A stretch of 41,907 nucleotides of DNA from an uncultured Oscillospiraceae bacterium (GTDB lineage Bacteria; Bacillota; Clostridia; Oscillospirales; Oscillospiraceae): positions 1 to 41,907 of the forward strand of contig CANQYW010000014.1 of the NCBI GenBank assembly GCA_947628185.1, given 5' to 3'. Numbering within the stretch: position 1 is the stretch's first letter; every line of letters begins with the position of its first letter. Made by a program: the position numbers and the translations under genes. The notes beneath the pieces are model-generated. The model saw only the letters and a program-made list of their open reading frames with translations, was not told where the DNA came from and made no database searches. Positions 10,253 through 25,601 of the stretch are shown here, piece after piece.

Positions 10253-10585
10253 TCACCTTGCTCTCAGCGACGCGGTGAGGTCCATAATGTACCCGCAAAG
10301 CGCCTCGAGACTCGTAAAGAGCGGGAGGCCACCGTCAGAGGGCATGTGGAACACGTTCACGATTCTGTTCTCCGCCTCCGCCTCCAGCATGTAGACTGGC
10401 GCCTCGGAATAGAAGTGGTCCCGGTAGATGTGCCGGAGCTCGTGGTCGAGACACCGCCGCCGCGCCTCCTCCGAGAGGTGCTGGCTCAGGTAGATGTCAA
10501 AACTGCCGTCAGGATTCGGCACAGTGACGCCCCGGACCCGCGCGGGGATGTCAACTATGCGAAGATACCAGTCCGGCGTCCACAT
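10253..10585 (-). CDS. ImmA/IrrE-like metallopeptidase, short form
   Basis: The zinc-binding motif HELRH (residues 48-52, within CLDHELRHIYRDHF) and a downstream acidic cluster (Glu70, Glu72) that could supply the third ligand are those of ImmA/IrrE proteases. In ICEBs1 and many prophages such an enzyme cleaves its partner repressor to release lytic or transfer genes. At 110 aa it lacks much of the usual 150-170 aa. Its ATG overlaps the repressor stop (TGATG), so the two are co-translated. Role as anti-repressor is inferred from the pairing. Confidence 0.78.
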   Translation of the reverse strand: MWTPDWYLRIVDIPARVRGVTVPNPDGSFDIYLSQHLSEEARRRCLDHELRHIYRDHFYSEAPVYMLEAEAENRIVNVFHMPSDGGLPLFTSLEALCGYIMDLTASLRAR

Positions 10586-10941
10586 CAGCCGCCGCCCTCC
10601 GTCCTACGCAGCGCCTCGATCACCGCCACGGCCCGCTCCACATCCTCCTTGGTGGCATCCCTGGCCAGGGAGAAGAGCATACGGCACTCCGAACGGTTGC
10701 GAAGCATGTCCAGGTACTCCTCCAGTTCGTCCTCGCCCTGGGTGCGGGACTCAGTCTGCCCCTTGAGGTACGCCAGTGTCACGCCGAAGTAGTCCGCTAT
10801 GCGCTTGAGAGTCGAGTCCCGAGGGGTGTTGGCGCCGGTTTTCCAGGTGCTCAACGCCGCCTGGGATACGCCGGTCTCCTTGGAGACACGGTAGGGGGTT
10901 ACACACTTTTCTTGGCAAAGTTGCACAAAAATTTCATACAT
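10585..10941 (-). CDS. XRE-family repressor (ImmR-like)
   Basis: An N-terminal Cro/C1 helix-turn-helix spans residues 5-62 (VTPYRVSKETGVSQAALSTW, then RIADYFGVTLAYLKG), followed by a short helical tail that could be the cleavage or oligomerisation part. The start at 10941 is supported by GGGGTGA 7 nt upstream; a longer in-frame extension to 11022 runs through operator DNA and is unlikely. It forms an operon with the ImmA-like gene and faces the phage late module. It probably binds the TACTT-type boxes at 10961-11041. Confidence 0.88.
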   Translation of the reverse strand: MYEIFVQLCQEKCVTPYRVSKETGVSQAALSTWKTGANTPRDSTLKRIADYFGVTLAYLKGQTESRTQGEDELEEYLDMLRNRSECRMLFSLARDATKEDVERAVAVIEALRRTEGGG

Positions 10942-10960
10942 AATTTGTTCACCCCTACAA

Positions 10961-11041
10961 TACTTAGAAATACTTAAATTTACTCTTGCATTTTGAAGTA
11001 ACCTGAAGTATAATGTGACCATACCAAAGTAATGCGAAGTA
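10961..11041. promoter_or_regulatory. Phased operator boxes of the phage switch
   Basis: Boxes TACTT at 10961 and 10971 and TACTC at 10981 repeat every 10 bp. In the opposite orientation GAAGTA occurs at 10995 and 11005, AAAGTA at 11026 and GAAGTA at 11036, with spacings of 10, 21 and 10 bp. All therefore sit on one DNA face. Two boxes lie in the spacer and -10 of the rightward promoter. Binding by the adjacent XRE repressor is inferred. Confidence 0.65.
10986..11014 (+). promoter_or_regulatory. Rightward promoter of the phage late module
   Basis: TTGCAT (10986-10991), a 17-nt spacer and a perfect TATAAT (11009-11014) would start transcription near 11021, about 104 nt before the small terminase gene. 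Two GAAGTA boxes overlap the spacer and the first bases of the -10, so repressor binding would block it. Confidence 0.75.
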
Positions 11042-11074
11042 AATGTACTACAGTTTCGTCACTTATACAATGTA

Positions 11075-11103
11075 ATTATAACATGCCGAGGAATTATTGT
11101 CAA
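11075..11103 (-). promoter_or_regulatory. Leftward promoter of the repressor operon
   Basis: On the minus strand TTGACA (11103-11098), exactly 17 nt, and TATAAT (11080-11075) form a perfect consensus promoter. It fires toward the repressor with a leader of about 127 nt that crosses the operator boxes and the rightward promoter. Confidence 0.82.
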
Positions 11104-11124
11104 TCATGGAGAGGAAGTGGAAAA

Positions 11125-11484
11125 ATGTCCAAGCGGTACACCGCGAAACGCATCCGTGAGGGGGTGCGCCAGTGCATAAGCTACTGCGAGAACACGGGCT
11201 ATCCGCCGGCGGAGTACGTGCTGCACATGTATCTGGACATCCCGGAGGAGGAGCTATCGAAAATCGCCGCCGCCGGAGGTGAGATAGGGCGCGCGGCGGC
11301 GGAGTGGCAGGAGTTCAAGACCTTCTACTGGCTGCGCCACGGGAGGGAGGACTCAAAGCAGGCACAGTTTGCCATGTTCAACTTAAAAGAGCCCAGCAAC
11401 GGCGGCTACGGGTCCTCGGGGGAGGGCCGGAGCGAGATCGTACTGCGGCTGGAGGGCGCCGGAGGCCCGGAGGCCTTTAAATGA
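11125..11484 (+). CDS. Probable phage terminase small subunit
   Basis: This 119-aa protein overlaps the large terminase by 4 nt (ATGA), the usual place of the DNA-recognition subunit of the packaging motor. It opens with a basic helical region (MSKRYTAKRIREGVRQCISY), continues with an acidic helical part and ends in a short tail. I do not see a diagnostic motif; the call is from position and size. ATG 11125 is chosen over the upstream in-frame extension because AGAGGAAG lies 8 nt before it. Confidence 0.65.
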   Translation: MSKRYTAKRIREGVRQCISYCENTGYPPAEYVLHMYLDIPEEELSKIAAAGGEIGRAAAEWQEFKTFYWLRHGREDSKQAQFAMFNLKEPSNGGYGSSGEGRSEIVLRLEGAGGPEAFK

Positions 11485-12836
11485 GCGGGGAGGTCATATG
11501 GGACGCAGGGAAGGCGAATCCCAAGCAGAGGGAGTTTTTCATGTCCAGGACCGCATTCACCGCCTACGGCGGGGCCAAGGGCGGCGGCAAGACCTGGGCC
11601 GTGCGGACGAAGGCGGTGGGCGGGGCGATAGTGAACCCGGGGCTCCGGGTGCTCATCATGAGGCGCACGTACCCGGAGCTGGAGGAAAACCACATAAGGC
11701 CCATAATCCGCACTCTCCCCAAGGAGATAGCCGCCTACAACGCCACCTCCAGGAGGCTCACGTTCTTCAACGGCTCCACATTGAAGTTCGGCCACTGGGC
11801 CGGGGACAGGTCGGAGGAGGAGTACCAGGGGCAGGAGTTCGACTGGATATTCATTGACGAGGCCACCCAGTTCTCCGAGCGGACATTCAACTACTTAAAA
11901 GGGTGCCTCAGGGGCGTGAGTCCCTACGACAAGCGGATGTACCTCACCTGTAATCCCGGGGGCATAGGGCACAGGTGGGTGAAGAGGCTCTTTATAACCC
12001 GGGACTTCCGGGAGGGCCCGGGGGAGGGGGCGGAGGACCCAAAGGACTACAGTTTCATCCCCGCCACGGTGGAGGACAACGAGTACATGCTAAAGTACTC
12101 CCCCAGGTACCTGGAGATGCTCTCCCAGATGCCGGAGAACGTGCGCCGGGCCTACAGGTACGGCGACTGGGAGGCCCTGGGGGGCGGGTACTTCCCGGAG
12201 CTCAGAATGGACACCCATGTGGTGGCGCCCTTCAAGATACCAGGCTCGTGGCGGCGCTACAGGGCCATAGACTACGGCCTTGACATGCTGGCGGTCATAT
12301 GGGTGGCGGTGGACAGCGGCGGGAGGAGCTGGGTCTACCGGGAGTGGACGCAGGAGGGGCTCATCGTCCGGGAGGCGGCGGAGGGTATACTCTCCCGCAC
12401 GATGCCGGACGAGCATATCGAGGTCACCTTCGCGCCGCCGGACCTCTGGTCCCGGCAGAAGGACACAGGCAGGTCCATGGCGGAGATATTTAAGTCCTGC
12501 GGCGTGGCACTAATTCGGGCGGGGAACGACAGGGTGCAGGGGCACATGATGATAAAGGAGCTCCTATCTCCTGACAGCGACGGCAAACCCGGGATAGTAT
12601 TCTTTAGCACCTGCCGGAGGCTCATAGAGGACATGCGGGAGATACAGGCGGACGAGACGAACCCCAACGACGCCGCCCGGGAGCCCCACGAGATAACACA
12701 CACCGTGGACGCCCTGAGATATTACTGCGTCTCGAGGGTGGTCCCGGCGGAGGAGCCGGGGGAGGATATTGAGTACGACGAGTTCGGGGATTACATGAGG
12801 GGAGGTGAGGCGAGCCGGGAGTATTTAAACTACTAA
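11481..12836 (+). CDS. terL: Phage terminase large subunit
   Basis: This is the ATPase-nuclease that packs DNA into the prohead. Walker A GGAKGGGKT spans residues 30-38, Walker B DWIFIDEA residues 121-128, and the coupling motif is in YLTCNPGG. The RuvC-like nuclease domain begins at YRAIDYGLD (first metal-binding Asp) and ends with HTVDALRYY (last Asp). The length of 451 aa is complete. All catalytic motifs are intact, which argues against simple decay of the element. It starts with ATGA overlapping the preceding stop. Confidence 0.96.
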   Translation: MSGEVIWDAGKANPKQREFFMSRTAFTAYGGAKGGGKTWAVRTKAVGGAIVNPGLRVLIMRRTYPELEENHIRPIIRTLPKEIAAYNATSRRLTFFNGSTLKFGHWAGDRSEEEYQGQEFDWIFIDEATQFSERTFNYLKGCLRGVSPYDKRMYLTCNPGGIGHRWVKRLFITRDFREGPGEGAEDPKDYSFIPATVEDNEYMLKYSPRYLEMLSQMPENVRRAYRYGDWEALGGGYFPELRMDTHVVAPFKIPGSWRRYRAIDYGLDMLAVIWVAVDSGGRSWVYREWTQEGLIVREAAEGILSRTMPDEHIEVTFAPPDLWSRQKDTGRSMAEIFKSCGVALIRAGNDRVQGHMMIKELLSPDSDGKPGIVFFSTCRRLIEDMREIQADETNPNDAAREPHEITHTVDALRYYCVSRVVPAEEPGEDIEYDEFGDYMRGGEASREYLNY

Positions 12837-12882
12837 CTTCGCGGGCGGGCGGGATGGGGATCAAAAGAGAGGAGGTGAAAAG

Positions 12883-13341
12883 ATGCAGGACGACGTTATA
12901 GAGAGCGGCGCGGAGGCCGGTTTTGCCGAAGGCTGGGAGGTCCCGGCGGAGGGCGCTATCCCGGCGGAGAGCGAGCCCCGGGAGGAGCCCGAGGAGTTCC
13001 CCGGGGAGACATCCGAGGAGGCGCCGGAGGGATCCCGGAGCGCCGGTCCCGAGGAGCGGGAGCAGGACTTCCGGCTCTTCCTTGAGATGTTCCCGGGCGT
13101 CGGCGCCCGGGACGTGCCCCGGGAGGTCTGGGAGCGTGTGCAGGAGGGCGAGAGCCTATGCTCCGCCTATCAGCGCTACAACACCGAGGCGCTACAAGAG
13201 GAGCTGATGTGGCTCCGGGAGAGGGCCGCCGCGCTGGAGCGGGAGCAGGCCAACAGACGCCGCTCCGCCGGTAGTCAACGGACCGCCGGCAGCGGACAGG
13301 GACGCAAGGACCCATTTGACCAGGGCTGGGACTCCATGTGA
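12883..13341 (+). CDS. Probable capsid scaffolding protein
   Basis: A 152-aa protein with a very acidic Glu/Pro-rich N-terminal half (residues 1-65), a coiled-coil segment (residues 100-125, ALQEELMWLRERAAALEREQ) and a basic C-terminus. This composition, and the place directly before the capsid gene, are typical of scaffold proteins in P22/phi29-like assembly. AGGAGGTGA lies 5 nt before the start. No protease gene is present in the block, so the scaffold would have to leave intact or be recycled. Confidence 0.7.
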   Translation: MQDDVIESGAEAGFAEGWEVPAEGAIPAESEPREEPEEFPGETSEEAPEGSRSAGPEEREQDFRLFLEMFPGVGARDVPREVWERVQEGESLCSAYQRYNTEALQEELMWLRERAAALEREQANRRRSAGSQRTAGSGQGRKDPFDQGWDSM

Positions 13342-13397
13342 GCGGCAGGGGTCCCACAAGAGAAGACGAGATCTAATTTTGAGAAAGGAAGGATAAA

Positions 13398-14234
13398 ATG
13401 CCGATCAATTTAGCAAAAAGAGCCTCAGACAAGGTGGTGGAGCGCTTTAAGCTGGCCTCCTGCACCGAGGGACTATTCACGGCGAAGTACAAGTGGACGG
13501 GCGTGGCCACGGTGCAGGTCTACTCGGTGGACACCCTGCCCCTCCACGACTACAACAAGGCGCTGACCACCGGCAGCAGGTTCGGGACCCTCACGGAGCT
13601 GGGGGACACCATGCAGGAGATGACCGTGGGTGACGACAAGGCCTTCAACGGCTCCATCGACAAGGGGTACAACACCTCCCAGCTCATGATAAAGGCGGCC
13701 TCCGGCGTGCTGCGCCGTCAGACCGACGAGGTGATAATCCCCTATGTGGACAAGTTCCGCCTCAATAAGCTCGCCGAGGGCGCGGGGCTCAACGCCTACA
13801 GCGTGAGCCTCACGAGAGAGAACGTCATAGAGACACTCATGACCGCGGGGGCAGAGATGAGCAACAACAAGGTGCCCAAGAGCGAGCGGGTGCTCTTCAT
13901 CGGCGAGACCGAGGCCATCAAGGTGAAACTGGCGGACCAGGTGGTGGGCGTGGACAAGCTGGCGGAGGAGAGCGTTGTCAATGGCGTCGCCGGGACCATA
14001 GACGGTATGCAGGTGCGGGTGGTGCCGGACGACTACATGCCCGAGGGCGTGGTGTTCCTCATAGTCCGCCGGGGTGTAGCCGTGGCGCCCAAGAAGATAG
14101 AGGACTTCCGCGTCTTGGAGGAGCACCCCGACATCTCCGGCGCCGTGGTACAGGGCAGGTTCCTCCACGACTGCTTTGTCCTGAGTACCCTGAAGAGCGG
14201 CATATACGCGGCCCACTCCGGGGCCAAGGACTGA
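13398..14234 (+). CDS. Major capsid protein (HK97-fold candidate)
   Basis: A 278-aa protein with the features of the short coat proteins of clostridial podovirus-like phages: an N-terminal helix, a central stretch with KGYNTSQLMIKAASGVLRRQ, and a C-terminal domain beginning at VPKSERVLFIGETEAIKVKL and ending in VVQGRFLHDCFVL. No long pro-domain is present, consistent with the separate scaffold gene before it. GAAAGGAAGG precedes the start. The capsid role is strongly suggested by order and sequence; the precise family is not certain. Confidence 0.82.
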   Translation: MPINLAKRASDKVVERFKLASCTEGLFTAKYKWTGVATVQVYSVDTLPLHDYNKALTTGSRFGTLTELGDTMQEMTVGDDKAFNGSIDKGYNTSQLMIKAASGVLRRQTDEVIIPYVDKFRLNKLAEGAGLNAYSVSLTRENVIETLMTAGAEMSNNKVPKSERVLFIGETEAIKVKLADQVVGVDKLAEESVVNGVAGTIDGMQVRVVPDDYMPEGVVFLIVRRGVAVAPKKIEDFRVLEEHPDISGAVVQGRFLHDCFVLSTLKSGIYAAHSGAKD

Positions 14235-14262: not shown

Positions 14263-17148
14263 ATGGCCAATATAAGCGCCAATTCCGGGGAGAGGCTCAT
14301 ATCCGTCACCCGCTGGCTGGGGCTCAATGAGTCCACCGAGGGGGAGGCGGCATTAAAGCCCGGCGAGGCGGCGGCCATGGGGAACTTCCGGGTGACGCCC
14401 GGCGGGGCCCTCAAAAAACGCCCCGGGAGTCTCGACGTGGCGGAGCTCTATAGGGAGTTTACGCCGGTGACGGACACGGGCACGCGCAGGTGCGTCATCA
14501 CCGACTCTGGCCTTAACCGCCGCCGCCTCTTCCCCCGGGTGGAGGTCCGGGAGGACGGGGAGCTCAGCCTTGCGGGCAGCGGCGTCGAGGTGACGGACGA
14601 GGAGGCCATGGACTACCAGGGGTATTTCCTGGAGGCGGAGGGGAGAGTCTGGGCGCTCTCGGACATCGAGGTGCGGGAGGCCCCCGGTTCCGAGCCACTC
14701 CTCGGGGGCCGCGGCGCTCCGGGGGAGCTCACCCGGTTCGCCCTGGGCGCGGAGTACGAGCGGCCCGAGGGGCCATTCTTCGACGGCCCCAAGTACGTGG
14801 AGCTCTGGCCCGCAGCCGAGGTGGGGCCCGATGGTGTGGCCCTCCGGGGGGAGAGGTACCTGGCGGCCAGGGCCCGGGGCCGGGAGACGGGGTTCTGGAG
14901 CGTCAACGCCGGGGGATACTTCATGCGGGACGGCGTGCTCTGGCGATACTACGGCGCGAGGGCTGAGAGTTACGAGCCCCGGCGGCTCTATAATAAGTTC
15001 GCGTGCCGCATGAACGACTCCGGCAAATACTTCACCGCCGGTGAGTGGAAACTCCAGACCACATACCAGGACTCCTCAATATCCGGCTGGACGGGCTTTG
15101 ATTTCGACCCCGCCACGGGTACCTTCTCCGTCACCGGGGAGGAGACGCCCCTCACCGCCGCCGGGGAGAGGTTTGTTGCCTACGGCGCCCGGTGCGTGAA
15201 GGAGGAGACGGTCCCCAGGGAGGACGGCGAGGGCCTATTCGTGCGGCAGTACGTCTCCGACGCCGAGGGACCATTTGAGGGGGAGGAGTTTAAGTACATC
15301 CCCGGCGGCAAGCTGGGCCGGGTGCTCGTGGCGGAGGGGAGCCGCCCCCAGGAGGAGGACGGGTTCGCATTCGTGGCGGAGGCCGTGGATTTCGTCGGGA
15401 ACTCATACGTTGTGATGCGGCGGGCGGGGGAGTACTTCATGTACGCCCCGGACGCCTCCGACAAGACGGAGTACGGGAGGTACGTCTACGGCTGGTACGG
15501 CTATCCCCTGGAGGTCCGGCCCTCCCAGTACAGCTGGTACCTAAACCCGGTCATCCGGGAGCGGAGCACTGAGCGGGGCGGCCCCGTCATGGGACTCTGG
15601 TCCGGCGCTGTGGGCGGAAGGGACGTCATCTGCGCCGCCGCCAACGGCCGGCTCTGGGAGCTCGCGCGGGAGGGCGATAAGTGGCGCGTCACCGACGCCG
15701 GAGCCCTGGACACGGCCCGGGAGGCCAGGATTTTCGGGTTCGACGGGCGGGCCTACATAATGAACGGCTCGGAGTACCTTGTGTGGGACGGGGAGAGGTT
15801 GAGGCCCGTGGAGGGCTACAGGCCCCTCGTGGCGGTGGCCGTGGGGCCGCAGGGAAGCGGGACGCTATTAGAGAACGTAAACCGGCTGACGCCGGGCCGG
15901 AGGTGCCTTGTGAGTCCCGACGGGGAGTCCGCGGTCTACGCCCTCCCCGAGGGGGACGTGGCCAGCGTTGACTGGGTGCGGGACCTCACCACGGGGATGA
16001 AACTCCGGGACTGGACGGCGGACCTCGCGGCGGGGACGGTGACGTTCCCCCGCCCCCCGGCCGCCGGGGTGGACACCTTAGAGGTGGCCTGGAGCGCCAA
16101 GACGAGCCGGCGCGGGGAGGTGCTGGGTATGCGTTTCGCGGAGCTCTTTAACGGCTCCCAGGACACCCGGGTCTTCATCTACGGCGACGGCTCCAACCGG
16201 GCCCTCTACTCCGGGATAGACCACGAGGGCCGGGGCCGGGCGGACTACTTCCCGGATCTATACGAGCTCACGGTGGGGGACGCCAACACGCCCATCACCG
16301 CCATGATACGCCACTACGACAAGCTCTTGGCCTTCAAGCCCGACAGCGCCTGGAGCGTGGGCTATGACGCCATAACGCTGGAGGACGGGTCCGTGACGGC
16401 GGGGTTCTACATAGCCCCGGTCAATAGGTCCATAGGCTGCGCCGTCTTTGGCGGGGCGGAGCTCGCAGGAAACAGGCCCAGGACCATAGACGGCGAGAGC
16501 GTCATGGAGTGGCTGCCCACGGGGAGTTCCGGCCTGACCGGGGACCCCAGGAACGCCCAGCGCGTCAGCGGGAAGGTGGAGAGGACCCTCAGGAGTTTTG
16601 ACCTTGGGCGGGTCCGGACGTTTTACGATAAGTTTAGCCACGAGTACTACGTCCTCTCCACGGACGGCAGGGCACTGGTGCAGGACCTGGAGACGGGGGC
16701 CTGGTACCTCTACACCGGCCTTGACGCCACGGCCCTAATAAACTATGGGGAGGAGCTATACTCCGGCACCAGTTACGGCGCGCTGCGCCGGTACTCCCAG
16801 GAGTACCTCACGGACAACGGCGAGGCCATCCCGGCCTTCTGGGAGTCCGGGGCCATGGACCTGGGGGTGGACATCAGGAGAAAGTACCTGGCCGACCTCT
16901 GGGTGGGGGTCGTGCCGGAGGGGCACGGGTATCTCAAGGTCAGGGCCAGTTCCCAGTGCGGCTGCCACGGGGCGGCGGCGGAATTTGACGGGGAGGGCAT
17001 GCCGGGGGAGACGAGCCTCCGGCGGCTAAAACTCCGGGTGAGGCGGTTCACATTTTTAAAACTCCGCTTTGAGAATTCCCGGCCGGACACCACCGCCACG
17101 GTGGTATCCATGGAGCTGCGGGTCCGGGCCGGGGGATACATTAGATGA
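14263..17148 (+). CDS. Podovirus-type tail nozzle / DNA stabilisation-like protein
   Basis: A 961-aa beta-rich protein. The N-terminus has the NFRVTPGGALKKRPG pattern (residues 41-55) seen in P22 gp10-like and T7 gp12-like tail tube proteins, and a mid-region segment, ITAMIRHYDKLLAFKPDSAW, resembles the part of these proteins where a repeated blade ends. The C-terminal third has many Tyr/Trp strands (GSYLYTGLDATALINYG-like composition) and a small sandwich. Such proteins close the portal channel after packaging. AGGTGAGGTAGG gives a strong ribosome site. The function is inferred; by eye it is neither a tape measure nor a tail spike. Confidence 0.68.
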   Translation: MANISANSGERLISVTRWLGLNESTEGEAALKPGEAAAMGNFRVTPGGALKKRPGSLDVAELYREFTPVTDTGTRRCVITDSGLNRRRLFPRVEVREDGELSLAGSGVEVTDEEAMDYQGYFLEAEGRVWALSDIEVREAPGSEPLLGGRGAPGELTRFALGAEYERPEGPFFDGPKYVELWPAAEVGPDGVALRGERYLAARARGRETGFWSVNAGGYFMRDGVLWRYYGARAESYEPRRLYNKFACRMNDSGKYFTAGEWKLQTTYQDSSISGWTGFDFDPATGTFSVTGEETPLTAAGERFVAYGARCVKEETVPREDGEGLFVRQYVSDAEGPFEGEEFKYIPGGKLGRVLVAEGSRPQEEDGFAFVAEAVDFVGNSYVVMRRAGEYFMYAPDASDKTEYGRYVYGWYGYPLEVRPSQYSWYLNPVIRERSTERGGPVMGLWSGAVGGRDVICAAANGRLWELAREGDKWRVTDAGALDTAREARIFGFDGRAYIMNGSEYLVWDGERLRPVEGYRPLVAVAVGPQGSGTLLENVNRLTPGRRCLVSPDGESAVYALPEGDVASVDWVRDLTTGMKLRDWTADLAAGTVTFPRPPAAGVDTLEVAWSAKTSRRGEVLGMRFAELFNGSQDTRVFIYGDGSNRALYSGIDHEGRGRADYFPDLYELTVGDANTPITAMIRHYDKLLAFKPDSAWSVGYDAITLEDGSVTAGFYIAPVNRSIGCAVFGGAELAGNRPRTIDGESVMEWLPTGSSGLTGDPRNAQRVSGKVERTLRSFDLGRVRTFYDKFSHEYYVLSTDGRALVQDLETGAWYLYTGLDATALINYGEELYSGTSYGALRRYSQEYLTDNGEAIPAFWESGAMDLGVDIRRKYLADLWVGVVPEGHGYLKVRASSQCGCHGAAAEFDGEGMPGETSLRRLKLRVRRFTFLKLRFENSRPDTTATVVSMELRVRAGGYIR

Positions 17149-17416: not shown

Positions 17417-19025
17417 CGCCCTGACGTTCAGTGAGGACATGGGACCGGAGGACAGGCTCCTCCGGGACAACTCCCCGGACCCGGAGACGGCCTGGGAGCT
17501 CCTGGAGAGGGGACGGCGGTTTAAGGAGGCGGTGAACCTATATGAGACGGTGAACACCAACGAGAACTTCTTCATCGGCAAACAGTGGGAGGGCGTGCGC
17601 TCCAACGGTCTGCCGACGCCGGTCTTCAACATCCTAAAACGCGACGTGCTCTTTGTGGTGTCCAACATAACAACGGACAATCTGAAGGTCCAGGCCACGG
17701 CGCTGGCAAGTTCGCCGGACACGGGGGTCCTTAAAGAGCCCGCCAGGATACTGAGCGAGGAGTTCGAGGCCATATTCACTCGGAACCACATAACGCGGCT
17801 CCTGAGGGAGTTTGCCCGGGACGCCGCCGTCCGGGGGGACGGGTGCATCTACACCTACTGGGACGCGGATGCCGAGAACGGCCAGGCGGTCCGTGGGGCC
17901 ATCAGAAGTGAGCTGGTGCAGAATACCAGGGTACACTTTGGGAACCCCAACGTGCGGGACGTGCAATCCCAGCCCTACATAATCCTCGAGAGCCGGGAGT
18001 CCCTGAGGGAGCTGAGGAACCGGGCATTTGAAAATTCCGGCGGGGACTTCCTGGGGGACATCACGCCAGACGAGGACACGGCCATATCCGGCGCGGAGAG
18101 GCAGGTGGACGGCAAGGCCACGAAGCTCCTCCTCATGTGGAAGAAGGAGGGCACGGGGCGGGTCATGGCCTACGAGTGCACAAGGGGCGCCGAGATAAAG
18201 GGCGTCTGGGACATGGGCCTCAAGCTCTACCCCATCGTGTGGCTCAACTGGGACTACGTCCAGGACTCCTACCACGGGCAGGCCATGATAACCGGGCTCA
18301 TACCGAACCAGATATTCATAAACAAGATGTGGGCCATGAGTATGCTCTCCCTCATGACCACCGCCTACCCCAAGATAATCTACGATAAGACCCGCATACC
18401 CCGGTGGACGAACCAGATAGGCCAGGCCATAGGCATAACCGGGGGAGACGTGGCCTCCGCCGCGAGGGCCATAGACCCCGCTGCCATATCTCCCCAGGTG
18501 GCCCAGTTCATAAGCGCCGCAATTGAGGAGACAAACAGCAACCTGGGGGCCACCAGCGTGGCCCTGGGCGACGCGAGGCCAGACAACACCTCCGCCATCA
18601 TAGCCCTCCAGCGGGCCGCCGCCACACCCAGCGAGATAACGAAACAGAATCTCCGTGGGTGCGTGGAGGAGCTCTCCCGGATATACCTTGACTTCATCGG
18701 GGAGTTCTACGGCCGCCGGGTGGTGGACATGGAGCTGCCGGAGGAGGTAAAGCGGGCAATCGAGAGCGAGGGGGGCGAGGTCCCGGAGACGGCCCCCAGG
18801 GAGTTTAACTTCGACATCTTCCGCCGTATCCCCATGCAGCTCAAGCTGGACGTAGGGGCCAGCTCCTACTACTCCGAGATAGCCTCCATCCAGACTCTGG
18901 ACAACCTCCTCGTCCAGGGGAAGATCGACATAGTCCAGTACCTGGAGAGGATACCCGACGGGTACATCCCGGATAGGCGGGGGCTCATAGCCGAGCTCCG
19001 GCGGGGAAAGGAGGCGGAGACGTGA
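17397..19025 (+). CDS. Phage portal protein (P22-like)
   Basis: A 542-aa protein with the architecture of P22-type portals: N-terminal wing (NTNENFFIGKQWEGV), a central region with DSYHGQAMITGLIPNQIFIN and MWAMSMLSLMTTAYPKIIYD, and the long crown helix region from about residue 370 (TNSNLGATSVALGDARPDNT). The portal forms the dodecameric ring at the capsid vertex on which TerL docks. It is complete. Its position is odd: 4.5 kb after terL and behind the capsid and nozzle genes, whereas portal usually follows terL directly. Confidence 0.88.
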   Translation: MDARRSDALTFSEDMGPEDRLLRDNSPDPETAWELLERGRRFKEAVNLYETVNTNENFFIGKQWEGVRSNGLPTPVFNILKRDVLFVVSNITTDNLKVQATALASSPDTGVLKEPARILSEEFEAIFTRNHITRLLREFARDAAVRGDGCIYTYWDADAENGQAVRGAIRSELVQNTRVHFGNPNVRDVQSQPYIILESRESLRELRNRAFENSGGDFLGDITPDEDTAISGAERQVDGKATKLLLMWKKEGTGRVMAYECTRGAEIKGVWDMGLKLYPIVWLNWDYVQDSYHGQAMITGLIPNQIFINKMWAMSMLSLMTTAYPKIIYDKTRIPRWTNQIGQAIGITGGDVASAARAIDPAAISPQVAQFISAAIEETNSNLGATSVALGDARPDNTSAIIALQRAAATPSEITKQNLRGCVEELSRIYLDFIGEFYGRRVVDMELPEEVKRAIESEGGEVPETAPREFNFDIFRRIPMQLKLDVGASSYYSEIASIQTLDNLLVQGKIDIVQYLERIPDGYIPDRRGLIAELRRGKEAET

Positions 19026-19345
19026 GGATAGCCATAAAGCGGGGCGACGCCCTCATTTTGCCGGTGGTCATCCGCGCCCACGGACAGCGCTTGAGCATTG
19101 AGGACGTGGAGACGGCGGAGTTTTGCTTGGGCGATGTCCGCAAGCTCTACCCCGGTGAGGTGACATATGAGGAGTCGGAGGGGTGTTTCCGCCTGCCGCT
19201 GACACAGGAGGACACGCTGTCCCTCCCTGAGGGGGGCTGCGCGGTGCTGGACGTGAGAGTAAAATTTTCAGGCGGCGCCGTGGCGGGGGCCCAGGGGATG
19301 GCCGCCGTCCCGGTGGAAAATGCGTTGAGCGGGGAGGTGCTTTAG
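19022..19345 (+). CDS. Phage accessory virion protein, possible fibre base
   Basis: A 107-aa beta-rich protein without a recognised motif (IKRGDALILPVVIRAHGQRL). Similar small proteins at the head of fibre gene runs often form the N-terminal part of baseplate upper proteins; this likeness is by eye only. GTG 19022 overlaps the portal stop (GTGA) with AAAGGAGG 8 nt upstream, so it is coupled to portal. Confidence 0.6.
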   Translation: MRIAIKRGDALILPVVIRAHGQRLSIEDVETAEFCLGDVRKLYPGEVTYEESEGCFRLPLTQEDTLSLPEGGCAVLDVRVKFSGGAVAGAQGMAAVPVENALSGEVL

Positions 19346-19346: not shown

Positions 19347-19751
19347 ATGTGCGATCACAATGATGAGTCCTGCGGGAAGTGCTGCGGGGGCTGCCCGCCC
19401 CTTGAGGTGGATCTTGGGGAGATGAGACTAATTCCCGGCCCCGTGGGGCCCAGGGGGCCCGGCATATCCGGCGCTCACCTGAACCCGGACTACACCCTGA
19501 CGCTCACCTTTGAGGACGGGAGCAGTTACACGACGCCCCCCATCCGCGGCGAGCGGGGCGAGACGCCCCGCGTAGGCCCCAACGGCAACTGGTTCCTGGG
19601 GGATGTGGACACGGGGGTCCCCGCCTCGCGGCTCGTGGACAGCCACACAGGCCGGGAGCTGCGGTTCTGGTTCGGGACTCTGGGGGAGTACAACGCCCTC
19701 ACCCGGGTGGAGCCGGACGTCTACTACAATATTTTGGAGGGAAAACCATGA
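19347..19751 (+). CDS. Cysteine-rich, collagen-like fibre protein
   Basis: The first 16 residues carry five cysteines in the pattern CDHNDESCGKCCGGC. A short collagen-type stretch follows (GPVGPRGPG, residues 32-40), then a beta-rich part with Ser/Thr strands and a C-terminal segment GTLGEYNALTRVEPDVYYNI, a motif found near the end of many Gram-positive phage fibre subunits. A trimeric fibre stem is likely. GGGGAGGTG lies before the start, and the stop overlaps the next ATG. Confidence 0.65.
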   Translation: MCDHNDESCGKCCGGCPPLEVDLGEMRLIPGPVGPRGPGISGAHLNPDYTLTLTFEDGSSYTTPPIRGERGETPRVGPNGNWFLGDVDTGVPASRLVDSHTGRELRFWFGTLGEYNALTRVEPDVYYNILEGKP

Positions 19752-19984
19752 GTCTAATTAAAGAAGGGTACTCGGTGTACCCACTGAGCCAGCGGAGGAT
19801 ACAGCTGGGCAGGGACATAATCTACGACAGGGACACCCGTGGGGAGGACTGGTTCATACTTGACCTCGCCCTCCCCGGCGGGAGGTTCGTCCCCAAAAAC
19901 TCCGGGGGACTCATCACGGCCCGGGGGCTCATCTTCAAGTGCCAGTCCCGCCACGGGGGACTTGAGGGAACGGGGGTGGCTTGA
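19748..19984 (+). CDS. Small phage protein of unknown function
   Basis: A 78-aa protein (LGRDIIYDRDTRGEDWFILD) with a good ribosome site (TTGGAGGG) and overlaps at both ends (ATGA with the preceding gene, TGATG with the next). No motif or membrane segment was found. The arrangement suggests a stoichiometric part of the fibre complex. Confidence 0.55.
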   Translation: MSLIKEGYSVYPLSQRRIQLGRDIIYDRDTRGEDWFILDLALPGGRFVPKNSGGLITARGLIFKCQSRHGGLEGTGVA

Positions 19985-20349
19985 TGGCGGCGTATTTCAC
20001 ACTGACGCTGGACACCACCCCGCCGGTGGTGACTGTCACCGGCCCGGACGTGAGCTCCGTCTCGCTGGTGCCGGGGAAGGACGTCTGCGCCTTTTCCTTC
20101 ACGGCAAATGAGGACTTCACGGCCTACGAGGTGCGGGTGACGCCAAGTTCCGACTCCGGCCACTCCGCGGGTACGGTCCTCGGCGTGAAGAACGGGTCCG
20201 TCAACATGTCCGGCGACGGTTTCTGGAGCGCCGGGGAGAGTGTCACATGCAAGATACATGCGGCGGACCTCCAGGCGGCCTCCGCCGGGGACGGGGCCAA
20301 GATCATAAAGGTGTTCGCCCAGGACGCCCTCGGGAACTGGAGCACCTGA
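19984..20349 (+). CDS. Ig-like phage surface protein
   Basis: The 121-aa product reads as one beta-sandwich domain of the bacterial Ig-like type: a TPPVVTVTG opening strand and a closing IIKVFAQDALGNWS strand with the common DALGN turn. Such domains decorate phage fibres or heads and bind carbohydrates weakly. Start ATG 19984 overlaps the previous stop by one base; GGGGGTGG lies upstream. Confidence 0.58.
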   Translation: MAAYFTLTLDTTPPVVTVTGPDVSSVSLVPGKDVCAFSFTANEDFTAYEVRVTPSSDSGHSAGTVLGVKNGSVNMSGDGFWSAGESVTCKIHAADLQAASAGDGAKIIKVFAQDALGNWST

Positions 20350-20732
20350 TGGCCGCGCCGGAGCTTAAATTCACCGTGACGGGCCGGGGGGTGTCCCTCG
20401 CCCCCGGGTTCGACGCGGTGGACGTCACCTTCAGCGCGGGGGCGCCCTACTTAAAGTTCGAGTGCCGGGCCACCAAGTTTGGCGAGGACTACGGCGTGGG
20501 TATCGGGACGCTGGTGGCGTCCTTCCCCGCCACCCCGGCGGGGGTGGAGAGGACGTTCAGCGTCGGCGCGCGCCACCTCATACATGGGGATGGTGAGTAC
20601 AGGATAAGCCTCTTTATAGAGGGCGAGGACGGCGCCTGGAACGACGGCGTGGCCTTCATACCCGCCGCCTCCACGGGGCTCATCACCGCCGGAGGGGAGA
20701 AATATTACTGCACGAGGGAGAGAGGAGAATGA
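20349..20732 (+). CDS. Second Ig-like phage surface protein
   Basis: A 127-aa beta-rich protein with the same layout as the preceding one (opening LKFTVTGRGVSLAPGFDAVD, closing region FIEGEDGAWNDGVAFI). The start ATG 20349 overlaps the previous stop by one base. It probably arose from, or partners, its neighbour. The next gene, the long tail fibre, starts 4 nt after its stop. Confidence 0.57.
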   Translation: MAAPELKFTVTGRGVSLAPGFDAVDVTFSAGAPYLKFECRATKFGEDYGVGIGTLVASFPATPAGVERTFSVGARHLIHGDGEYRISLFIEGEDGAWNDGVAFIPAASTGLITAGGEKYYCTRERGE

Positions 20733-20735
20733 AAA

Positions 20736-22829
20736 ATGGCTGATTACAACTCAAAATTCACAGGCCCCGAGATAGACGCGGCCATCGGGGCCGTGGCGGG
20801 CAAGGCGGAGAAGGCCGTGCCCGGGGCCGCCGGGAACGTGGCGCTATTGGACGCGGAGGGGAACCTCACGGACAGCGGCAAGGCGCTGACGCCGGAGGCC
20901 ATCGGCGCGCTGGCCGCGGGTGCCGCCGCAGCGGCGGGGAAACTCGCCACGCCGCACTCAATAATAACTGACCTTGGGAGCTCCGAGGCCGCCTCCTTTG
21001 ACGGCTCGGAGGACATAGAGCCGGGCGTCACGGGAATTCTGCCCGTGGCCCACGGTGGCACGGGGAGCGGGAGCATAGACGAGGTCCCGTCCCCCGGCAG
21101 CGGGAACCTTGTCACCAGCGGCGGGATACACACGGCGCTCTCGGAGAAACTCTCAAAGTCCGAGGCCCAGGGCGCGTACATGCCCATCGGCGGGGGACAG
21201 GTGAAGGGGACGCTCTCGGTGGGCGTCTCGGAGCCGGATATCGTGACCATCACCGGCAACGGTATATCGAAGGCCGGGGGCTCGCCCCTGACATTGGAGG
21301 ACCTCAACATAAGCGGCGGGAAGATAACGGGGTTGGAGGAGCCCACGTCTGACACCGGCGCCGCCAACAAGGCCTACGTGGACGCCCACCGGGGCAACTG
21401 GTACGGCACCTCCACCACCTCCGCCGCCACCTCCGAGAAGACGGTGAAACTCACCGACGCCGCCGGTTTCCATCTCGCCGCCGGGGCGAAGGTGTCGGTG
21501 AGGTTCCAGTACGGCAACTCCGTGAAGGGCGCGAAACTCAACGTGGCCTCCACGGGCAGTATCACCATAAAGAGCCATGGGACCACGGACGTGGCGTCGG
21601 ACTCCTGGCTCGCGGGGTCGGTGGTGGACTTCGTCTACGACGGCTCTTACTGGATACTCCAGGGGATAAACGGCGCGGTACCCGTGGAGCAGGGGGGAAC
21701 GGGGCTCACATCGGAGCCCTCCATGCTGACGGACCTCGCCTCCACCGCCGCGAAGTCGCCCCTCTCGGCGAACCCGCGCCCCGGCGTCACGGGCGTCCTG
21801 CCGGCGGCCCACGGCGGCACCGGCAACGCCACGGGATACGTGCTCTCGGGTCAGAAATCCGGCGTCTCCCCCGGCGCCAGGGCCACGGCGGAGGGCGCGA
21901 ACTGCTCCGCCGGTGGAGCAAATTCCCACGCGGAGGGCAATAACTGCGAGGCGAGGGGCCTTGACTCCCACGCCGAGGGCTCGGACAGCGTGGCCTCTGG
22001 GGAGTGTTCCCACGCCGAGGGGGAGTTCTGCACCGCCTCCGGCGCTATGGCCCACGCCGGTGGGTCCCAGTGTACCGTCTCTGGCCTACACTCCTTCTGC
22101 CACGGGGTGCACCTGACGGTGAGCAATCCTAACTCCACGGTCGTTGGCACCTACAACAGGGAGGGCCTGGAGCCCGGCGAGGAGTACTTCGTCGTGGGGG
22201 GCGGCTGGGCCAACGAGGACCTCGCCACGAACCAGCGCCGCAACCTCTTTAGGGTGGGGGACCAGGGAATATACGGGGCCTTCGCCTACAACAACACCGG
22301 CGCGGACTACGCGGAGTTCTTTGAGTGGAGCGACGGCAACCCCGAGGCCGAGGACCGGGTGGGCCTCATGGTGGCCCTTGAGGGGGAGAAGGTGCGCCCC
22401 GCCGGCCCTGGGGACGAGGCGGTGGGGATAACCTCCGCCACGCCCTCGGTGATCGGTGACTCCTACGCCGACCAGTGGCACGGGATGCTCCTCACGGACA
22501 TCTTCGGAAGACCGATATTGGAGGAGATAGACGTGCCCGCCGTCATCGGCGCGGGGGGCGAGGAGCTGGCTCCGGCGACAAAACGCTGGGCCCCCAAGGT
22601 GAACCCGGACTACGACCCCCTGGAGCCCTACATAGCGCGGCACAAGCGGCCCGAGTGGACGGGCGTGGGCCTCATGGGGAAACTCGTGGTGACAGACGAC
22701 GGGACATGCGTCCCGGGCGGTTTCTGCGGGCCCTCTGAGGGGGGCATAGCCACCTACAGCCCCGAGAGGACCCGGTTCCGGGTGCTCTCCCGGCTCGACG
22801 AGCTCCATGTGCGGGTGCTCGCCGTCTGA
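20736..22829 (+). CDS. Tail fibre with YadA-like head repeats and peptidase G2-type self-cleaving C-terminus
   Basis: A 697-aa fibre. Residues 1-160 contain a repeat-like shaft (GVTGILPVAHGGTGSG, found again near residues 345-365 as GVTGVLPAAHGGTGNA). Residues about 378-450 are YadA-head-like repeats with SHAEG three times and AHAGG once, typical of trimeric left-handed beta rolls. The last 210 residues, from ADYAEFFEWSDGNPE on, match the intramolecular chaperone/peptidase G2 domain known from phi29 gp12, which helps trimerisation and then cuts itself off. GAGAGGAGA precedes the start. It is probably the host-recognition fibre. Confidence 0.88.
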   Translation: MADYNSKFTGPEIDAAIGAVAGKAEKAVPGAAGNVALLDAEGNLTDSGKALTPEAIGALAAGAAAAAGKLATPHSIITDLGSSEAASFDGSEDIEPGVTGILPVAHGGTGSGSIDEVPSPGSGNLVTSGGIHTALSEKLSKSEAQGAYMPIGGGQVKGTLSVGVSEPDIVTITGNGISKAGGSPLTLEDLNISGGKITGLEEPTSDTGAANKAYVDAHRGNWYGTSTTSAATSEKTVKLTDAAGFHLAAGAKVSVRFQYGNSVKGAKLNVASTGSITIKSHGTTDVASDSWLAGSVVDFVYDGSYWILQGINGAVPVEQGGTGLTSEPSMLTDLASTAAKSPLSANPRPGVTGVLPAAHGGTGNATGYVLSGQKSGVSPGARATAEGANCSAGGANSHAEGNNCEARGLDSHAEGSDSVASGECSHAEGEFCTASGAMAHAGGSQCTVSGLHSFCHGVHLTVSNPNSTVVGTYNREGLEPGEEYFVVGGGWANEDLATNQRRNLFRVGDQGIYGAFAYNNTGADYAEFFEWSDGNPEAEDRVGLMVALEGEKVRPAGPGDEAVGITSATPSVIGDSYADQWHGMLLTDIFGRPILEEIDVPAVIGAGGEELAPATKRWAPKVNPDYDPLEPYIARHKRPEWTGVGLMGKLVVTDDGTCVPGGFCGPSEGGIATYSPERTRFRVLSRLDELHVRVLAV

Positions 22830-22842
22830 GGGGGCAAGGGAC

Positions 22843-23103
22843 GTGGTGACAAATATAATAGTGGCGGTGCTGGGGCTCATCGGGACGCTCACGGGGGCGT
22901 ACCTCGCGAACCGCAAATCCAGCGCCCTCATAGCCTACAGGCTCGAGCAGCTGGAGCGGAAACAGGACGCCCACAACAGCCTCATGGAGCGGACATATAA
23001 GCTGGAGGAGCAGAGCGCCCTCTATGAGGAGAGACTGCGCTCGGTGGACCACCGCATAGATAATTTAGAAAGGAGTCAACTAATTGACAGAGAAAGAAGT
23101 TAG
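22843..23103 (+). CDS. XhlA-like holin accessory / membrane protein
   Basis: One N-terminal membrane segment (NIIVAVLGLIGTLTGAYLA) is followed by a charged coiled coil (AYRLEQLERKQDAHNSLMER). This is the layout of haemolysin XhlA-type proteins that help lysis in Gram-positive phages. The start is GTG 22843 or GTG 22846, both close to AAGGG. It overlaps the lysin gene by 20 nt, which supports a lysis role. Confidence 0.65.
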   Translation: MVTNIIVAVLGLIGTLTGAYLANRKSSALIAYRLEQLERKQDAHNSLMERTYKLEEQSALYEERLRSVDHRIDNLERSQLIDRERS

Positions 23104-23818
23104 GGAACATGTGGTTGACATAATGCGCGGCTGGATCGGGGGCCGGGAGGGCTCCGGCATCCACCACAGCATTATTGACGCCTACAACGAGATTAGGCCC
23201 CTGCCCAGGGGCTACAAGATGAGCTACTCCGATGAGTGGTGCGCCGCCACGGTGAGCGCCGCCGGGTTCCTTGCGGGGTACACTGACATCATGCCCGCGG
23301 AGTGCAGCTGCTCCAGGATGATAGCGCTCTATAAGGAGCGGGGAGGCTGGGAGGAGTCCGACGGCTACGTCCCCGCCCCCGGGGACCTCATCATGTACGA
23401 CTGGGACGACGACGGTTCCGGTGAGGACACCGGCGCCCCGGAGCACGTGGGCATGGTGGAGAAGGTGGAGGGGGGCGTCATAACCGTAATCGAGGGCAAC
23501 GCCTCCGACATGGTGAAGCGCCGCACGCTGGCGGTGAACGGGCGGTATATAAGGGGATTCTGCTGTCCCGACTTCGCCTCCCTCGCCGCCCCCGCACCTG
23601 CACCCGCCCCCGCGCCGGAGAGGTTCAACACCTACGGCGAGGTGGAGAGGTACGTGGGGTTCGCCGCGCCCACGGTCCGGAAACTCATAGACAGCGGTTT
23701 CCTTCGCGGCAACGGCGAGAAGGACGCGAACGGCGACCCCATAGACATGGATCTCACCCGGGACATGGTGAGGCTCCTTGTGATGCTCGACAGGGCCGGG
23801 GCCTTCGACGGGAACTGA
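23084..23818 (+). CDS. CHAP-domain endolysin
   Basis: The catalytic triad is visible: Cys53 in SDEWCAATVSAAG, His121 in PEHVGMVEKV and Asn139 in IEGNAS. This is a CHAP/NlpC-P60-like amidase or endopeptidase that cuts peptidoglycan peptides. A proline-alanine linker (PAPAPAPAP, residues about 168-178) connects it to a 65-aa C-terminal domain that may bind the wall. The TTG start (23084) sits 8 nt after a perfect AAAGGAG, which decides it. No signal peptide, so it needs a holin. Confidence 0.87.
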   Translation: MTEKEVREHVVDIMRGWIGGREGSGIHHSIIDAYNEIRPLPRGYKMSYSDEWCAATVSAAGFLAGYTDIMPAECSCSRMIALYKERGGWEESDGYVPAPGDLIMYDWDDDGSGEDTGAPEHVGMVEKVEGGVITVIEGNASDMVKRRTLAVNGRYIRGFCCPDFASLAAPAPAPAPAPERFNTYGEVERYVGFAAPTVRKLIDSGFLRGNGEKDANGDPIDMDLTRDMVRLLVMLDRAGAFDGN

Positions 23819-23829
23819 GAGAAAAGCTT

Positions 23830-23852
23830 GCGGGGCGGCACTACCGCCCCGC
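23830..23852 (+). other. GC-rich hairpin between lysin and holin genes
   Basis: GCGGGGCGG and CCGCCCCGC form a perfect 9-bp stem with a 5-nt loop in the only real gap (68 nt) of the late module. No T-run follows; the ribosome site of the next gene begins some 20 nt later. It may protect mRNA ends or set the ratio of lysin to holin. Confidence 0.5.
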
Positions 23853-23886
23853 GGAGGACAAACATTCACACTAAGGAGGAGAAAAA

Positions 23887-24096
23887 ATGAAAAAAGAGGA
23901 AATACTGAGGAAACTCACCAGCCGCAAGCTCTGGGTGGCCCTGGCGGCCTTCGTCTCCGGGCTCATCCTGGCCTTCGGCGGCAGCGAGGGCGCGGCGGAG
24001 ACGGTCTCCGGCGTCATACTCCAGGGGGCGGCGGTGCTGGGGTACCTCCTGGCGGAGGGCCTTGCCGACGCCGCAAATACCGAGGGGAGGCGGTGA
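23887..24096 (+). CDS. Holin candidate
   Basis: A 69-aa protein with two hydrophobic segments (residues 14-32, LWVALAAFVSGLILAFGGS, and 39-58, VSGVILQGAAVLGYLLAEGL) and a lysine-rich N-terminus. Size, topology and position after the lysin match small phage holins, which form the membrane hole through which the lysin leaves. A strong AAGGAGG lies upstream. The family is not recognised with certainty. Confidence 0.7.
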   Translation: MKKEEILRKLTSRKLWVALAAFVSGLILAFGGSEGAAETVSGVILQGAAVLGYLLAEGLADAANTEGRR

Positions 24097-24100
24097 GGTG

Positions 24101-25192
24101 ATGGCCGCGAAAAATAGGAGACAGCGCTACGGCCTCACCGTGGAGCCCAGGACGCCGGCAGTTACCGATGGGGACCCCGGCACTCAGGCGGGGTACACAC
24201 CAGCCCAGTTCAGGGGCTACGAGGCCCAGACGGGCGCTGTGGACGACCTCTACGACGCCGCAAAGGAGCTGAAACTCGTTGAGCTCAAGAAGGCATTTGA
24301 GGAGAACTCCGCGGACATCGACGCCCAGCGCCGGGGGATACCCGCGGTGTACCGGGCCCGGCGCAACAGCGCCGCCGCCAAGAGCGCCCTGGAGGGCAGG
24401 AATTTTAATGAGTACGCCGCCGCCACGGGCCTCAACTCCGGCGCCGGCGGACAGGCGGCCCTCGCCCGGTCGAACGCCCTGCGGGGCGAGCTGGGGGCCA
24501 TAGACGCGGACGAGGACGCGGCGCGGCGGGACGTGGACGAGGCCGGCCTCAAGCTCCGCATACAGTACGAGAACGATCTGGCCGCAGCCGTGGCGAACGG
24601 GGAGTACGAGCGGGCGGCGGCGCTCCTCGATGAGTACAGGCGGGCGGAGGAGTCCCGGGTGGACACGGACAGGGCCCAGGCGGACGAGAATTACCGCGCC
24701 TACACCGCCCAGGAGGACAGGCTCCAGCGGCTGGCCGACGAGGACTACCGCCGCCGTGAGGCGGACTTTGACCGGGAGAGGTGGGAGGCGGAGCTGAAGA
24801 GCGACCGGGACAGCGCCGCATACTCCCAGGCCCTTAAACGGGCGGAGACGCTGGCGAAATACGGCGACTTCTCGGGCTACAGCGTCCTGGGGTACGACGA
24901 CGCCACGATAAACGGTATGCGCCGGGCCTGGGCGGCCTCAAATCCGCTCCTCGCCTACAACGTGGGTGTCATATCCGCCAGCGAGTATTACGCCATGACC
25001 GGCAAGTATCCCACCGGGAGCACCGGGGGCTACAGAAGCTCGGGAAGTTCGGGGAGCTCCGGGAGCTCCTCAAAAAGCAGCTCCGGGGGAAAGCTCTCAA
25101 AGTACGAGGAGGAGTTTTTGAGCCGCCGCCGTCCCCAGCCCAAGATAAAGGACCAGGACCTGGCGGGGCTCCTCTCCTCCTTAGGTGGCTGA
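24101..25192 (+). CDS. Coiled-coil phage protein, possible internal ejection protein
   Basis: A 363-aa protein rich in Ala, Arg, Asp and Glu. It is mostly helical from residue 45 to 250 with heptad-like repeats (ENDLAAAVANGEYERAAALL; EDRLQRLADEDYRRREADFD). A Ser/Gly linker (residues about 320-338) leads to a short C-terminal tail ending in DLAGLLSSLGG. In podoviruses such proteins can be internal proteins ejected into the host with DNA. No lytic transglycosylase domain or membrane segment is visible. The role is a guess from composition and order. Confidence 0.55.
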   Translation: MAAKNRRQRYGLTVEPRTPAVTDGDPGTQAGYTPAQFRGYEAQTGAVDDLYDAAKELKLVELKKAFEENSADIDAQRRGIPAVYRARRNSAAAKSALEGRNFNEYAAATGLNSGAGGQAALARSNALRGELGAIDADEDAARRDVDEAGLKLRIQYENDLAAAVANGEYERAAALLDEYRRAEESRVDTDRAQADENYRAYTAQEDRLQRLADEDYRRREADFDRERWEAELKSDRDSAAYSQALKRAETLAKYGDFSGYSVLGYDDATINGMRRAWAASNPLLAYNVGVISASEYYAMTGKYPTGSTGGYRSSGSSGSSGSSSKSSSGGKLSKYEEEFLSRRRPQPKIKDQDLAGLLSSLGG

Positions 25193-25193
25193 T

Positions 25194-25601
25194 ATGAGGA
25201 GCGTTGGAGACGTCTTTACCGCCGCCATGGCCCTCATGGGCGAGGACCCCTGCTGCGACTGCGGCGCCGATGCCGTCCAGGAGTACGCCGCCATGACGCC
25301 CGCCATCGTGGACACGCTGGTGGCGGAATATAGGATGATGGATGGCTCCTCCGGCGTACAGGCCCAGGTGCGGTGCATGCGCGAGGGGCTCGCAGGGATT
25401 GACGACACCTACGCCCTGGGGGTCATGCAGTACGGCCTGGCGGCGCACCTGCTGGTGGAGGAGAACCCCGGCGCCGCCAGTTTCTACTACCAGAGGTACG
25501 TGGAGCTCAGAAACATCTACTTCTCCCGCCGGGGCGGGGAGGACGGGGAGACCTGGGACCTCTACGGCGGGATAGAGCACGGTGAGATGGGCCGCTGGTG
25601 A
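25194..25601 (+). CDS. Adaptor-like head-tail connector protein
   Basis: A 135-aa helical protein. A central segment YALGVMQYGLAAHLLVEENP followed by FYYQRYVELRN resembles the last helices of gp4/gp15/T7 gp11-type adaptors, which sit under the portal and connect the nozzle. Start ATG 25194 is chosen (AGGTGG about 5 nt upstream); GTG 25185 is possible and overlaps the preceding gene. It is the last gene of the phage block, far from portal. Confidence 0.6.
   Translation: MRSVGDVFTAAMALMGEDPCCDCGADAVQEYAAMTPAIVDTLVAEYRMMDGSSGVQAQVRCMREGLAGIDDTYALGVMQYGLAAHLLVEENPGAASFYYQRYVELRNIYFSRRGGEDGETWDLYGGIEHGEMGRW

Follow-up and report, generated by a model that had tools for sequence, protein, structure and literature searches.

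The window analysed here, positions 1 to 41,907 of contig CANQYW010000014.1 from an uncultured Oscillospiraceae bacterium (assembly GCA_947628185.1), carries at positions 10253–25601 a compact module of podovirus-like particle genes. We propose that this module is a domesticated podovirus particle, one that probably works as a gene-transfer agent (GTA). A preliminary description made from the letters of the window had suggested either a domesticated particle or GTA, or else a satellite-like element. The first suggestion fits what was found in the host genus: the module is near-universal and mostly single, its tree largely follows that of the host, its genes are under purifying selection, and ten genomes have one neighbourhood in common. 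Since a near-universal, mostly single and co-diverging module under purifying selection favours domestication, we regard domestication as supported; the packaging of host DNA by the module, and gene transfer itself, we infer from its genes. The derivation from a tailed phage expected of a GTA is apparent in the head, packaging and tail genes recognised by profile searches.

Occurrence, descent and selection

The host belongs to an uncultured genus of the Oscillospiraceae, whose named relatives are metagenome-assembled genomes (MAGs) from the gut of rabbit (Lapin) or ruminants. We examined 34 genomes of this genus, that of the window included; 21 were classed as good (at least 90% complete, at most 5% contamination). 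A relative of the major capsid protein (MCP) was present in 28 of the 34 genomes and in 20 of the 21 good ones; for comparison, rpoB was recovered from 30 and 20, respectively. Capsid matches were mostly one per genome, with two in G002 and G033. The repressor of the module was found in 30 of the 34 genomes, including all 21 good ones, and was nearly always single, two matches being seen only in G021. A search with the large terminase (TerL) over 60 relatives gave matches in 41.

These counts bear on the suggestion that the module is a capsid-encoding satellite which obtains its early functions from a helper phage. Its small size and its content of late genes only would suit such an element. 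Phage satellites of the PICI (phage-inducible chromosomal island) kind possess, by definition, their own integrase and a primase/replication unit; in the module we found neither an integrase nor a primase nor any other such early unit. Moreover, the module is near-universal, whereas the primase of related prophages occurs patchily, in 5 of the 34 genomes. The satellite suggestion is thus unsupported, and we give it hardly any credence.

In an rpoB tree of 29 genomes, G003, G006, G007, G013, G015, G023, G025, G026 and G028 (group B) split off with a support of 100, and the genome of the window sits next to this branch. G020 joined group B in an rpoB tree of 25 genomes, where the six members used again had a support of 100. 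The remaining 19 of the 29 genomes, the window's own included, all have an MCP match, and their TerLs fall in one clade of 21 (Shimodaira-Hasegawa-like approximate likelihood-ratio support 97). Among the 25 genomes with rpoB, TerL and MCP (G003, which lies outside the module clade A, included), the tree of TerL, MCP and portal had 13 of 22 splits in common with the rpoB tree, while the best of 2000 label permutations reached 3. Eight of the nine strong rpoB splits recurred in the module tree, with one strong conflict (G003/G006). When the host tree of the 19 non-B genomes was based on rpoB and, where present, rpoC, host and module trees agreed on 9 of 16 splits (best of 5000 label permutations, 4). 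All six host splits with a support of at least 95 recurred in the module tree, and host and module distances correlated at 0.77 (permutation maximum, 0.48).

Selection on the module is purifying. We determined the ratio of nonsynonymous to synonymous substitution (dN/dS) for up to eight pairs of relatives, with genomes shared between pairs and the window's genome excluded. The medians were 0.14 for TerL, 0.14 for the small terminase (TerS), 0.17 for the portal and 0.06 for MCP (eight pairs each), 0.29 for the nozzle-like protein (six pairs), 0.23 for the lysin (three pairs) and 0.47 for the small s17 gene (six pairs). Between the window and five relatives, the uncorrected proportions of nonsynonymous (pN) and synonymous (pS) differences were 0.16–0.20 and 0.51–0.60 for TerL, and 0.15–0.16 and 0.36–0.46 for MCP. 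These values also speak to the possibility that the module is a decaying prophage remnant, which would account for the missing early region. As the preliminary description had noted, no gene of the window's module looks broken, all its reading frames being open; with selection purifying, and the loss of the early part only being improbable in so many lineages, a remnant is a very improbable explanation.

Integration, early genes and chromosomal site

Profile searches matched no integrase, replication or tape-measure gene in the module. The lack of integration and replication genes is as expected of a GTA, within the bounds set by an 83% complete genome (40 contigs) and by the naming of genes by eye in relatives. 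The 11 modules with both ends in view measured 12.8–16.4 kb and held 17–21 genes, and no early region was recognised in any of them, whether by likeness to the window's genes or by eye. The preliminary description had named a split or distant early module as something to look for, and an integrase with att repeats just outside the window as a mark of an ordinary prophage. No such early module was found: the primase of the prophage family had no match in the window's genome, where other early genes were not searched for individually. Pfam searches gave two tyrosine and one serine recombinase in this genome, none of them on the module's contig. As to att-like repeats, the two flanks had no exact word longer than 12 bases in common: one 12-mer was shared in direct orientation, where about 0.5 are expected, and one in inverted orientation (imperfect repeats were not searched for). 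The integrase, exact att repeats and replication genes of a temperate prophage are thus all wanting here.

The module might nevertheless be an ordinary, very common temperate podovirus-like prophage, with its integrase or early genes elsewhere or lost in assembly. Occupation of many sites by a module with a complete early region had been named as a sign of this; the sites do differ between lineages, while the early region went unrecognised in the 11 complete modules. A recombinase profile that we built on sequences from the genus (16 of the tyrosine and 4 of the serine type) matched 5 of 37 contig sets, namely G016a (a prophage), G021, G025, G026 and G028. G021 has a serine recombinase 361 bases beyond the module, as a prophage might; no recombinase was found in the 7.5 kb past the module of its sister G014, and the G016 contig ends before that point. 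The serine recombinase of G028 and G026 was considered as the module's own and rejected: it is part of an integrative element that adjoins the module, and the corresponding place in G025 is free of that element, although a recombinase of its own lies about 7 kb from its module. Comparison of the joined G028 contig (64–17604) with G025 (9083–9233) delimits this element, which has MobC-like, ParB-like and serine recombinase genes (named by eye) and has at its borders short copies of a site of which G025 has just one.

True prophages of the module's family do carry early genes. Extra family copies in G016 (C5), G022 (C65) and G033 (C29) are podovirus-like prophages with the same TerL and TerS family; they hold between them AAA, primase-helicase, DEAD helicase and RusA genes, and G016 C5 also has the N-terminal part of an integrase at its contig end. 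These copies are patchy in occurrence, unlike the module. In G011 (C66:2248–2901), a second, partial TerL match has one in-frame stop, and its TerS, judged by eye, falls with those of the prophage copies; this is perhaps a decaying prophage besides the compact module. In a viral collection that may lack records near the window's genome, full-length TerL matches were at most 67% identical to that of the window and a 91-residue fragment 69%, so that no near-identical viral TerL was seen. Viral contigs of 34–43 kb with full-length TerLs 50–66% identical (only TerL was compared) would fit an ordinary prophage. G007 and G029 are not counted among the compact modules and are regarded as ordinary phages, their TerLs being close to viral contigs: that of G029 to L238 (38.8 kb), that of G007 to L235 and L236, the nearest of which may derive from the same MAG. 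The gut habitats of the genus thus seem to harbour phages of the module's family. G003 groups near these two genomes. Taken with the co-divergence of module and host, these observations leave an ordinary prophage as a quite improbable explanation.

The module's surroundings, with flank genes named by eye, reveal one neighbourhood common to ten genomes, by the left or the right flank. A zinc-ribbon protein (43–87% identical) matches on the left in G001, G002, G004, G009 and G018. On the right, the matches are an SDR oxidoreductase (90–99%) in G001, G009, G010, G018, G024 and G030 and polyphosphate kinase (81–88%) in G001, G005, G009 and G012; aspartokinase and homoserine dehydrogenase come next in G001 and G005. 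Orthologues of these last two (75–81% identical) flank the group-B module of G025, G026 and G028 in the opposite orientation. A second left flank, with prfA, is common to G014, G016 and G021. With one neighbourhood in ten genomes, another in three and that of the window elsewhere, the site appears stable in subclades and to have moved over the genus.

Gene content, switch and variants of the module

The block delimited in the preliminary description is real, with correct limits and key parts supported by profiles. It consists of 20 open genes in 15,349 bases, 97% coding. Its features are as follows.

10253–10585, minus strand: ImmA-like metallopeptidase, 110 amino acids, HExxH (phrog_20936, unknown function, 6e-9; weak PF18894 and phrog_87)
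10585–10941, minus strand: Xre/Cro-C1 repressor, 118 amino acids, ATG at 10941 (HTH_3, 6e-9; relatives throughout the genus as counted above)
10942–11124, no strand: divergent promoter/operator region with AAGTA repeats (word count against shuffling; sigma-70-like promoters on both strands by eye)
11125–11484, plus strand: TerS, 119 amino acids (aligns with relatives immediately 5' of TerL; no profile match)
11481–12836, plus strand: TerL (phrog_979, 3e-48; Terminase_6N)
12883–13341, plus strand: scaffold-like protein immediately 5' of the capsid gene (position and relatives; no profile match)
13398–14234, plus strand: MCP (phrog_422, 2e-36; relatives as counted above)
14263–17148, plus strand: large tail hub/nozzle-like protein, 961 amino acids (kept across the genus; weak profile matches only)
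17162–17416, plus strand: small protein with an N-terminal hydrophobic stretch, 5' of the portal (conserved position)
17397–19025, plus strand: portal, P22 type (PF16510, 6e-15; phrog_156, 4e-27)
19022–19345, plus strand: g19, conserved module protein (relatives; no profile match)
19347–19751, plus strand: tail-tip or fibre-attachment protein (weak phrog_9525 and PF24243)
19775–20732, plus strand: three small genes 5' of the fibre (phrog_10898; second 3e-35, third 0.002)
20736–22829, plus strand: tail fibre with a Peptidase_G2 self-cleavage domain (PF11962, 2e-34; phrog_4775, 6e-27)
22843–23103, plus strand: XhlA-like protein of the lysis cassette (PF10779, 2e-4, below the Pfam cut-off; phrog_1863, unknown function, 3e-10)
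23111–23818, plus strand: CHAP-domain endolysin (PF05257, 6e-8; phrog_21357, 3e-32)
23887–24096, plus strand: small membrane protein, holin candidate (sequence by eye, position)
24101–25192, plus strand: Ala/Glu-rich needle-like protein (relatives in 19 of 43 pooled contigs, the window included; no profile match)
25194–25601, plus strand: g25, conserved last gene (relatives likewise in 19 of 43 pooled contigs, the window included)

Among the names first given to these genes, those of repressor, TerL, capsid, portal, fibre and lysin agree with profiles. The ImmA and XhlA names are more weakly backed, that of ImmA by the HExxH motif, phrog_20936 and metallopeptidase matches near E 0.02; scaffold, nozzle, holin and needle were named from position, sequence by eye and relatives, with no profile basis. 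Catalytic motifs had been read in TerL, and the Walker A, Walker B and candidate nuclease acidic residues (motifs assigned by eye) are indeed among the many residues invariant in an alignment of 12 relatives. The predicted structure of TerS is all-helical and matched the P22 terminase at low confidence only. The loss of the DNA-binding part of TerS, as noted for the Faecalibacterium GTA, was considered here and dropped, because prophage TerS has an identical layout and the P22 model match is of low confidence.

To the left, 54 bases separate the module from the last pilus-type gene of a type IV pilus or type II secretion operon (560–10199; T2SSE, T2SSF, prepilin peptidase, prepilin). To the right, 103 bases separate it from GGGtGRT; the right flank opens with genes named GGGtGRT and NifU-like (both by eye). 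A cluster of four tRNA genes occupies window positions 1–421.

Wherever the left end of a module of the window's clade was mapped, the repressor and ImmA-like genes adjoin there. The 183-base gap between repressor and TerS in the window contains six AAGTA/TACTT words, as against 0.74 expected from shuffling, and sigma-70-like promoters, recognised by eye, face both ways. In 16 of 17 clade-A regions examined by eye, the exception being G032, the late promoter has a -10 box that shares bases with an AAGTA word. The mechanism that we envisage for the module is modelled on switches of the ImmR/ImmA type.

The fibre region is the most variable part between modules. On the opposite strand between fibre and lysis genes, the modules of G009, G010, G031 and G011 have HicAB-like and RelE/YoeB-like toxin-antitoxin-like genes (named by eye); the window's module has none. 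An 8 kb version, with no adjoining repressor, lies near homoserine dehydrogenase and aspartokinase in G025, G026 and G028, and its dN/dS is 0.00–0.09 for TerS, TerL, portal and MCP (two pairs). In group B the repressor shows 36–45% identity. The G026 repressor stands next to a flavoprotein gene (named by eye), some 5 kb beyond the module, and those of G025 and G028 have the same neighbours as that of G026, but on contigs other than the module's. The vicinity of homoserine dehydrogenase and aspartokinase is common to some clade-A and group-B modules. Compact TerS-TerL-portal-scaffold-capsid modules of 8–10 kb, amid host-like genes, were recognised by profiles and by eye in G053, G054 and G059, which belong to other families of the order; G008, of the same genus as the window, has a related compact module ended by the contig end.

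Particle function and significance

Several observations weigh against a domesticated, vertically inherited particle. The approximately unbiased test rejected the exact host topology for the module, with a log-likelihood difference of 237, which fell to 71 without G033 and to 21 (p 0.013) without five genomes; exchange or error in the host tree thus remains. The G033 module looks like a replacement from the G014/G021 lineage, and host-tree error may add to the mismatch. The site varies as well: the 3' side of GGGtGRT holds other genes and no module in eight relatives. The gene order in the window is unlike that of most relatives. The compact TerLs have prophage TerLs as their sister group (support 91), and an MCP with 73% identity occurs on a viral contig of 5.2 kb. 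In clade A the number of AAGTA words varies from 0 to 9 (9 in G031, 8 in G033, 2 in seven genomes, 0 in G032; 0.5–1.2 expected). A confident DNA-binding call for TerS was not obtained by alignment with relatives or from the structure model, and ComEC was not found in the window's incomplete genome. Inheritance at a conserved locus, which the preliminary description had linked to domestication, therefore holds for the ten genomes with one neighbourhood and fails for the window's genome, whose module lies elsewhere. Allowing for the G033 replacement and the rejected exact topology, the module has the vertical inheritance and purifying selection expected of a GTA, and we read its descent as mainly vertical with at least one replacement.

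If the module is a GTA, a podovirus-like prophage would have been captured by an ancestor of this lineage of Oscillospiraceae, would have lost integration and replication and would then have been inherited as a host trait. Under stress, ImmA would cleave or displace the repressor, and in a small number of cells the divergent promoter would switch on TerS, TerL and the genes for head, tail and lysis. Heads would then be filled with host DNA by the terminase, the lysis genes would burst the producer cell, and the particles would inject their DNA into kin.

The main rival to this GTA reading is a domesticated particle that, like PBSX, serves to kill: it would pack host DNA and be selected for the killing of related cells and not for delivery. 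It would give the same pattern of inheritance, and the divergence of the fibre region, with toxin-antitoxin-like pairs there in some modules, would suit it. The low dN/dS of TerS, TerL and portal (about 0.14–0.17) argues that packaging is maintained; since PBSX likewise keeps its packaging genes, this conservation is not decisive. The DNA-uptake gene ComEC, present in 30 of the 34 genomes, also speaks for delivery, as a permissive condition only. We consider a killer particle unlikely. For the Faecalibacterium GTA (FpGTA), this possibility is left open in the discussion of the study that described it (PMC12946183).

RcGTA of Rhodobacter and relatives is an element of about 15 kb, vertically inherited and without integration or replication genes, all of which the module resembles. 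RcGTA differs in its siphovirus-like build, which includes a tape measure, and in having its regulatory genes (regulator GafA) dispersed; the module's genes point to a short tail and include a repressor of phage type. Bacillus subtilis, also Gram-positive, has PBSX, which likewise makes particles and does not propagate itself; this element is longer, has a contractile tail and acts as a tailocin that does not inject its DNA.

Our literature search, in which papers on the host genus itself were not sought, gave one directly relevant study (PMC12946183, Nat Commun 2026). Its authors call FpGTA the first podovirus-like GTA-like element and the second such Gram-positive system; it comprises two operons, yields 40 nm particles with about 9 kb of DNA, and has operon I in all 12 Faecalibacterium genomes of that study, its loci of 10.5 and 5.5 kb lying about 125 kb apart in one strain. 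By gene set, as far as that description goes, the module is like FpGTA in anatomy: podovirus-like, without replication genes and with a TerS-TerL-portal-scaffold-capsid set. FpGTA is split over two loci, with fibre and lysis genes in the distant second operon, whereas the module unites packaging, tail, fibre, XhlA-like and CHAP lysin genes and a repressor-protease switch of its own within a single locus of 15 kb. The main text of PMC12946183 never uses the word "repressor".

The published layout of FpGTA operon I is resembled by the compact modules of G053, G054, G059 and G008. We tentatively entertain the idea that the Oscillospirales as an order have long possessed podoviral GTAs, the compact modules being relics of one or a few early domestications, with FpGTA as one branch and a dedicated switch kept since the genus arose. 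This would take in clade A with its repressor-ImmA switch, the 8 kb core of group B, the G026 switch a few kilobases away and the modules of other families.

If the GTA reading is true, a single-locus, repressor-controlled and near-universal GTA in a gut genus would offer a defined switch to test, and it would show podovirus domestication alongside prophage relatives in the same genomes. It might also help to explain the GTA-like packaging reported, without an operon in the account given, for the Oscillospiraceae genus Onthomonas (PMC12946183). The bacteria themselves may use the module, perhaps to move their own DNA between cells.

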